64,000 bases of DNA from Pseudomonadales bacterium (lineage in GTDB: Bacteria; Pseudomonadota; Gammaproteobacteria; Pseudomonadales; Azotimanducaceae). Below are positions 14,675-15,240 of the stretch, piece after piece (within the stretch, counting starts at the first letter, position 1; every line of letters starts with the position of its first letter). A model generated the notes under the pieces. It had not been told where the DNA came from, did no database searches, and saw only the letters and a list, made by a program, of their open reading frames with translations. The DNA lies in assembly GCA_028285415.1 (NCBI GenBank), contig JANQPF010000003.1, positions 1 through 64,000 of the forward strand. Reading direction: 5' to 3'. Made by a program: the position numbers and the translations under genes.

Positions 14675-14715
14675 AACGTGCTAACGTCGGCCTCACCACA
14701 CTCGAGGAGCAACTC

Positions 14716-15240
14716 ATGACTCAGCGACTCCTGTCTTTCGCCGCCTGCCTGCTGTTTGCCTCAGCAGTTCATGCAGCACCCCAAGTCGGCGATCCGGCCC
14801 CTGACTGGACCCTGCGGGGCTCAGACGGCAACCTGCACAGCCTGGCGGACCTTCGCGGTCAGCACGTGGTCATCGCGTTCTTTCCAAAAGCCTTTACCAG
14901 CGGCTGAACCATCGAATGCAAAGCGCTGCGTGACAGTGACAAAGAAATTCGCAACTACAACGTCGTCTACTTCATGGCGAGCGTTGACTCTGTCGAAGAC
15001 AACACGGGCTTCGCCAGGAAAAACAAAGCGACGTTTCCCATTCTGGCCGACCCCACCAAGGAAACGGCCCGCGCTTACGGCGTGCTCGGCGGTCACGGCT
15101 TCGCCAACCGCTGGACGTTTTACATCGATCCGGAAGGGCTCATCGCACGCATCGACAAGTCGGTGAATCCGATGTCCGCGGGTGACGATCTCGTGGCCAA
15201 CCTGGAGGAGCTCGGCGTCCCAGTCGCGGGCGCGGACTGA
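14716..15240 (+). CDS. exported peroxiredoxin with in-frame TGA at the peroxidatic position (probable selenoprotein)
   Basis: Read through one TGA, the frame gives 174 residues. A signal peptide (MTQRLLSFAACLLFASAVHA) leads into a thioredoxin-fold AhpC/TSA peroxiredoxin: GDPAPDWTL, VVIAFFPKAFTSG, then TGA at 14905-14907 as residue 64, TIECKALRD, FPILADPTKETARAYGV and RWTFYIDPEGLI. The stop sits exactly where this family has its peroxidatic Cys/Sec. Both halves are well conserved in the same frame, and a SECIS-like hairpin follows. The resolving residue is probably Cys68. A ribosome site GAGGAG precedes the ATG. The alternatives are a TGC-to-TGA nonsense change or a sequencing error. Ordinary gene callers would cut it at codon 64. 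Confidence 0.85.
14924..14938 (+). promoter_or_regulatory. SECIS-like hairpin downstream of the TGA
   Basis: CGCTG and CAGTG form a five-pair stem (one G-T pair) around the loop CGTGA. The loop begins 22 bases after the TGA and has G at its second position, matching the loose bacterial SECIS rule (G in the first two loop bases, loop about 16-37 bases downstream). A competing stem (14916-14920 with 14927-14931) starts a little closer. The hairpin is short, so this supports selenocysteine but does not prove it. Confidence 0.45.

Follow-up and report, generated by a model that had tools for sequence, protein, structure and literature searches.

A predicted selenocysteine-containing and probably exported peroxiredoxin of a Pseudomonadales bacterium, with a candidate resolving cysteine four residues from the catalytic position

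Introduction

Sec-peroxiredoxin with a TxxU motif is an established selenoprotein family. It is frequent in marine samples, with 43 members in the Sargasso Sea set (PMC1088965) and 253 genes in the GOS data (PMC2398784), as given in the available text of these two reports, and reviews, in their accessible parts, class the family under COG1225 or pfam00578. The signature of the PrxQ group of peroxiredoxins, according to the available text of PMC5302317, is P(K/A/R)(D/A)xTxGC, with a Gly before the catalytic residue. Characterised PrxQ proteins have a resolving Cys at +5 in the accessible part of PMC5811025. That of PMC8945050 gives the motif as PKxxTPGCTxEAC, again with the resolving Cys at +5, and records that BCPs without a resolving Cys exist. 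The bacterial SECIS model, as set out in the available text of PMC13188914, has an apical loop of 3–9 nt with a G at loop position 1–2 and a stem of 4–16 bp, lies 16–37 nt from the UGA and has a minimum free energy of at most −7.5 kcal/mol.

Here we describe a gene in a 64,000-nucleotide stretch of DNA from a Pseudomonadales bacterium (the window) that very probably places Sec at the catalytic position of an exported peroxide-destroying enzyme. In this family a second, invariant Cys lies at +4 from the catalytic residue, and the TGA form of the gene is accompanied by a conserved hairpin.

Results

The gene and its reading frame

The features of the gene are as follows.

14704 to 14709, plus strand: likely ribosome-binding site GAGGAG, read from the sequence, 6 bases 5' of the ATG at 14716
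14716 to 15240, plus strand: predicted Sec peroxiredoxin gene, 174 residues with Sec at 64, from the sequence, the Pfam AhpC-TSA match and relatives
14905 to 14907, plus strand: TGA codon 64, predicted Sec at the peroxidatic position, from the alignment of homologues
15238 to 15240, plus strand: TGA terminator of the gene, read from the sequence

An earlier note on this DNA had placed a TGA at the catalytic position of a peroxiredoxin (AFTSG-TGA-TIEC), with the frame intact on both sides, and direct reading of the sequence bears out both points. The active-site string around codon 64 is PKAFTSG-TGA-TIEC. This is the single in-frame TGA within ORF 14716–15240 and the frame is unbroken from codon 64 to the stop. 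In the ORF list, made without read-through, the product stops at residue 63. The read-through product matches Pfam AhpC-TSA at 108.5 bits (cut-off 26; E 2.7e-31) over residues 24–145, a match that spans the TGA and covers both halves, and it also matches Redoxin. A scan for promoters and terminators detected none. Purifying selection is apparent in both halves in eight chosen pairs with TGA-bearing relatives. Downstream of the TGA, these pairs gave dN of 0.12–0.23 against dS of 0.71–2.12, the larger dS values being near saturation.

Codon 64 in the family

Genomes of the organism's own taxonomic family, 206 in all, were searched and the protein was found at E <= 1e-25 in 157. Loci were taken, among the matches listed, from 149 of these 157 genomes (76 TGA genomes and 73 Cys genomes). 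A further 13 loci came from GTDB contigs scanned with six short peptide patterns; their contig titles assign 11 to Gammaproteobacteria/Pseudomonadales/Pseudomonadaceae and two to Verrucomicrobiales, and some of these contig loci come from the same organisms as genome loci. Four paralogues in the window's own genome, all with Cys, were excluded from the resulting 163 family loci with an alignable codon 64. The earlier note had proposed aligning homologues with Cys or Sec at residue 64. In that alignment codon 64 is TGA in 88 loci, a Cys codon (TGC or TGT) in 75 and anything else in none. When a 108 nt cut around the codon is compared, 150 of the 163 are unique (78 TGA and 72 Cys); TGA is therefore present in 77 unique sequences besides that of the window, although these are not counts of independent events because the TGA sequences are related to one another. 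Across the phylum, a match at E <= 1e-30 was found in only one of 299 genomes, the window's own, which indicates that the close relatives are concentrated in its own family.

One TGA homologue (L134, genome G006) has an eroded motif, FVGR-TGA-SLQC, with Val in place of Thr. It sits on a long branch, its SECIS motif is intact and it is perhaps a decaying copy.

A SECIS-like hairpin follows the TGA

The following element lies downstream of codon 64.

14924 to 14938, plus strand: putative SECIS hairpin, stem CGCTG/CAGTG, loop CGTGA (14929 to 14933), 21 nt past the TGA

With a 5 nt loop (CGUGA, G second), a 5 bp stem and a spacing of 21 nt, the hairpin agrees in loop, stem, position of the G and spacing with the bacterial SECIS model in the available text of PMC13188914. 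The motif CTGCGTGACAG is found at a fixed offset in 77 of the 78 unique TGA sequences as against none of the 72 Cys sequences. The lone exception (L069) reads CTCCGTGAGAG, a compensatory change from G-C to C-G that keeps the hairpin. The loop CGTGA is present in all 78 TGA sequences, and the five core pairs are formed in 74 of them compared with 0 of 72 Cys sequences. Within the window the motif (14926–14936) occurs once, against 0.06 occurrences expected.

Synonymous codon identity was scored on the 147 sequences without N (76 TGA and 71 Cys). At codons +7, +8 and +9 it is 0.97, 1.00 and 1.00 in the TGA set compared with 0.27, 0.33 and 0.50 in the Cys set, and at +6 it is 0.89 compared with 0.30; elsewhere it ranges from 0.27 to 0.70 in both sets. 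The protein over the motif is mostly LRDS, and the single Cys sequence with LRDS is without the motif. Conservation of LRDS cannot by itself explain the motif, because the protein leaves the synonymous bases free. The median fold z against synonymous shuffles is −1.97 for the TGA set and +0.34 for the Cys set.

The window's own 66 nt stretch folds at −7.8 kcal/mol against a dinucleotide shuffle mean of −11.3 (z +1.43), 187 of 200 shuffles fold at least as well, and the core hairpin alone gives −4.8 kcal/mol. Because the window's own 66 nt fold worse than the shuffle mean, the SECIS assignment rests on comparison and not on stability. An Rfam search of the region gave no SECIS match and one chance-level match, to RAGATH-25. 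Judged by this comparison of sequences, the CTGCGTGACAG element of the TGA genes is a bacterial SECIS element.

The genome contains the Sec machinery

The earlier note had named selA, selB, selC (tRNA-Sec) and selD as the genes to look for, and had taken the absence of all of them to speak against its reading. All four are in the assembly (5.97 Mb in 34 contigs, 99.0% complete, 3.2% contamination): tRNA-Sec at 73.6 bits with anticodon tca, selA at 523 bits, selB at 409 bits and selD at 271 bits. The genes for tRNA-Sec, SelA and SelB are side by side on a 14.5 kb contig (C4), and selD is on contig C21. The ORFs of C4, named by eye, include a sigma factor and gltA-, sdhC- and sdhA-like genes, and the contig looks chromosomal. 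It has a GC content of 59.1% compared with 61.6%. Its tetranucleotide profile correlates with that of the window at 0.965, compared with 0.977–0.984 for 14.4 kb pieces of the window against the rest. Because of its gene content, GC content and tetranucleotide correlation, C4 is unlikely to be contamination.

A phage-type integrase ORF (Pfam; L191 2229–3659, contig C4) adjoins the tRNA-Sec gene, and selC may therefore be an integration site. The selD gene lies within a 720-aa ORF (L192 2016–4178, contig C21) with an NADH-dehydrogenase-like first part, which by eye looks like an Ndh-SelD fusion. Such fusions are described in the available text of PMC2398784. The SelD part has CGGCGAKL, hence Cys rather than Sec (by eye).

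Three other ORFs of the genome, all of the Trx-fold, are Sec candidates. The first has an in-frame TGA in SVDW-TGA-PFC and a signal-peptide-like start (L016 1633–1635, contig C2, near 414004). Its hairpin, at a spacing of 20 nt, has the same CGUGA loop as the Sec peroxiredoxin gene, as would be expected if one SelB reads both. The second, with RGHW-TGA-PAC (L013 1624–1626, contig C34, near 111162), is SelL-related or Prx-like by its best NCBIfam match, which is below cut-off, and its hairpin has 8 bp, a GGT loop and a spacing of 21 nt. The third is a ResA-like WAxxUGC protein with an in-frame TGA (L015 1600–1602, contig C23, near 18290), which scores 250.9 bits against NF041054 (cut-off 300) and has a hairpin at 17 nt.

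Exchange of Sec and Cys and linkage to selAB in relatives

On a phylogeny built from 148 proteins, 76 with U and 72 with C, the letter at codon 64 needs 4 changes compared with 49 in shuffles. For tree building, codon 64 was entered as C in all rows, which kept the letter itself from influencing the topology. Within the mainly Sec clade there are 18 Cys rows. The exact SECIS motif is present in none of the 18 and is mostly kept in several, one of which (L088) retains GTGCGTGACAG, most of the motif. From their sequences, these rows look like reversions from Sec to Cys accompanied by decay of the SECIS element. The direction of the change is something we infer, because the tree is midpoint-rooted and has many weak branches; its starred branches force one change only. 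Two Verrucomicrobiales contigs with the TGA form (L069 and L070) stand beside the main Cys clade of this midpoint-rooted tree, so that transfer or a separate origin is possible.

In 21 of the 76 TGA genomes, among the matches listed, the Sec peroxiredoxin gene follows selB on one contig and in the same orientation; in the same set the gap between the two genes is 53–1199 nt in 15 genomes, 7.6–7.9 kb in five and 16.4 kb in one. Among the matches listed for the 73 Cys genomes, inspected by eye, none has the gene within 20 kb of selA or selB, which is a weak negative as these assemblies are mostly in many contigs. The gene is unlinked in the window's own genome, where it lies on contig C24 and selAB on C4.

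Searches with strict E-value limits, in genomes many of which are fragmentary, found all three of selA, selB and tRNA-Sec in 46 of the 76 TGA genomes, two in 18, one in four and none in eight. The corresponding numbers for the 73 Cys genomes are 58, 5, 1 and 9. TGA and Cys genomes cannot be told apart by whether they have the machinery, since all three components also occur together in 58 of the 73 Cys genomes. A looser search for selA in the 12 TGA genomes with one component or none found it in three: G083, where it was already known, and, in fragmentary form, G052 and G070. The eight without selA, selB and tRNA-Sec were still negative in this search. The machinery-less TGA genomes include G115 (96% complete, 520 contigs) and G112 (90% complete), which are the hardest to explain; assembly gaps are a possible cause.

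The N-terminus resembles a signal peptide

The N-terminal feature is the following.

14716 to 14775, plus strand: signal-peptide-like segment MTQRLLSFAACLLFASAVHA and, judged by eye, a VHA cleavage site after residue 20, followed by APQVGD

Of the earlier note's suggestion that the protein is a periplasmic selenoprotein with a signal peptide, the signal-peptide-like N-terminus stands and the periplasmic location is what we infer from it. A hydrophobicity heuristic, run with no control set, classed 144 of the 160 homologues with an N-terminus as signal-peptide-like, three fragments being left out of this count. Several of the 16 negative homologues look like wrong choices of start. For the window protein, the first cut allowed by the heuristic is after residue 15, compared with residue 20 by eye.

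The active site and Cys68

The following residues are conserved in the family.

14884 to 14886, plus strand: Pro57 in the active-site motif Pxxx(T)xxU, conserved as Pro in all 150 unique loci
14896 to 14898, plus strand: Thr61 in the same motif, with Thr in all but one of the 150 unique loci and Val in the remaining one
14917 to 14919, plus strand: Cys68, candidate resolving Cys at +4, present without exception in the 150 unique loci
15109 to 15111, plus strand: Arg132, invariant column R112 of alignment A1 with 90 rows (model numbering plus 20)

We take Arg132 to be the conserved active-site Arg of peroxiredoxins. The protein thus has the features of a peroxiredoxin: an AhpC-TSA/Redoxin domain, the Pxxx(T/S)xxC/U motif and the Arg. 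An AF2 model of the mature protein, built with an alignment of 90 sequences, has a pLDDT of 96.1. One predicted helix (model residues 42–53) carries Sec64 close to its beginning and Cys68 as well. The top Foldseek matches in the PDB are Bcp4, BCP, Bcp1 and AhpE, and the best profile matches are Bcp and AhpE chains. Membership in the NCBIfam thiol peroxidase family NF006960 (80.3 bits, cut-off 140) or in NF040737 (47.1 bits, cut-off 270) was rejected, as both scores are under the curated cut-off. A Cys at +5 from codon 64 occurs in none of the 150 unique loci, and two of the paralogues in the same genome have one there (L011, GCTKEAC; L010, VCTAETC).

Discussion

The selenoprotein reading put forward in the earlier note is supported by the SECIS signature, the exchange of Sec and Cys at codon 64, the linkage to selAB in relatives and the machinery in the assembly. 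We put the probability at roughly 0.93 that the gene encodes an exported peroxiredoxin in which Sec64 is inserted by means of tRNA-Sec, SelB and the hairpin; in this reading Cys68 would be the resolving residue and a thiol the reductant. Translation would proceed with SelB recognizing the hairpin 21 nt on (CGCUG/CAGUG, loop CGUGA) and delivering tRNA-Sec, which would decode the TGA at codon 64, and the N-terminal signal peptide would direct export. The selenolate of Sec64 would attack the hydroperoxide, giving a selenenic acid. Cys68, one helical turn on, would attack this in turn to form a Sec-Cys bond, and a periplasmic thiol reductant would then re-reduce that bond. The predictions in this scheme are that Sec is incorporated, that the protein is exported and acts as a peroxidase, that a Sec-Cys bond forms during turnover and that a thiol re-reduces it.

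The alternative that survives best keeps the selenoprotein and gives Cys68 no resolving role: the enzyme would be a 1-Sec peroxiredoxin, like AhpE, whose selenenic acid is reduced directly by an external thiol. The close folds include AhpE, which is 1-Cys by its entry title, Sec and Cys68 share one helix in the model, and position +4 differs from the resolving position in the available text of PMC5811025 and PMC8945050. Against these points, Cys68 is invariant in all 150 unique sequences, in the Sec and Cys forms alike. We regard a 1-Sec mechanism as a real possibility, though not the probable one.

It is improbable that the protein is a thiol-disulfide oxidoreductase, or some other Trx-fold redox protein, and not a peroxidase. 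The other three Sec candidates of the genome do resemble thiol oxidoreductases, thiol peroxidases or SelL-related proteins in their model matches, none of which reaches its cut-off, but the present protein has the full Pxxx(T)xxU motif with the invariant Arg and its closest solved relatives are peroxiredoxins.

The frame is open after the TGA, as it would also be if the codon were read by a near-cognate tRNA or under a reassigned code to give Trp or another residue. Reassignment was rejected because the gene itself stops at TGA; moreover, the exchange at residue 64 is with Cys only, tRNA-Sec and selB are present, and a reassigned code accounts for neither the hairpin nor the linkage to selAB. 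We consider this route very unlikely. Finally, a sequencing error or a lone TGC to TGA nonsense mutation in a Cys peroxiredoxin, now a pseudogene, would fit the Cys codon at this position in 75 of the 163 loci but was rejected as next to impossible, given TGA in 78 unique sequences, a SECIS motif confined to those, purifying selection past the TGA and the full Sec machinery in the assembly.

The reading of the gene as an exported Sec peroxiredoxin has several consequences. The enzyme has probably been missed or truncated in the annotation of many relatives, because the ORF list stops at residue 63 and all NCBIfam models score under their cut-offs. With 76 TGA and 73 Cys genomes, the family offers a large natural comparison of one enzyme with either residue at its catalytic position, with apparent loss of the SECIS element after reversion. 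The protein would also be a selenoperoxidase that seems to be exported and whose candidate resolving residue is displaced; its chemistry is directly testable. We also suggest, tentatively and at slightly less than even odds, that it represents a separate and largely lineage-bound exported class: one with U/C-x3-C in one helix, in which Sec is the main catalytic residue with several later Cys reversions and SECIS decay, so closely bound to the use of selenium that the gene follows selAB in many relatives, and belonging to a selenium-based redox system of the envelope together with the other exported-looking Trx-fold selenoproteins of the genome.

Comparison with known systems

Established knowledge is not overturned by these results. 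The gene does not define a new selenoprotein class, because Sec-peroxiredoxins with TxxU have long been known, and it is the form with the unusually placed partner Cys that may be undescribed. We take NF040737 (233 positions) to be the model of PrxU from Eubacterium acidaminophilum. The window protein shares with PrxU the Sec residue and the AhpC/TSA superfamily, to the extent of 47.1 bits, and differs in not being a member of that model, whose cut-off is 270 bits.

The peroxiredoxins of the Sargasso and GOS sets are like the present protein in having Sec as the peroxidatic residue, the TxxU motif and a bacterial SECIS element after the UGA (available text of PMC1088965 and PMC2398784). They differ in that the same text mentions no export, +4 Cys or selAB linkage; 'signal peptide' is absent from the two main texts, and PMC2398784 uses the word 'secreted' of serine proteases. 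Some of these genes may belong to the same subfamily. Among the titles and abstract openings listed from the open-licence literature there was no exported Sec-peroxiredoxin, and no paper in that literature was found to mention peroxiredoxin, CxxxC and a resolving cysteine together.

AhpE of M. tuberculosis (1xxu) has a close fold, with 34% identity over 151 columns. The AhpE core motif PxAF(T/S)xxC, as given in the available text of PMC5302317, fits 94 of the 150 unique loci and the PKAFTSGU of the window. AhpE differs in having Val/Ile before its Cys in the same text, where the present family has Gly, and in being 1-Cys by the title of its structure entry, where the present family has a second invariant Cys. 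With PrxQ/BCP, the protein shares the fold and the placing of two redox residues in one helix. Allowing Sec, the PrxQ signature P(K/A/R)(D/A)xTxGC fits 143 of the 150 unique loci, including PKAFTSGU of the window, and the Gly before codon 64 that marks PrxQ is present in 149 of 150 (available text of PMC5302317). The second Cys stands at +4 throughout the 150 unique loci, in contrast with +5 in the characterised PrxQ in the accessible part of PMC5811025, and a further difference is that the present protein is predicted to carry Sec and is probably exported. It therefore lacks both the +5 Cys of 2-Cys PrxQ and the two marks of AhpE, the Val/Ile and the single Cys. The protein is PrxQ-like, and it may work as an atypical 2-Cys peroxiredoxin.
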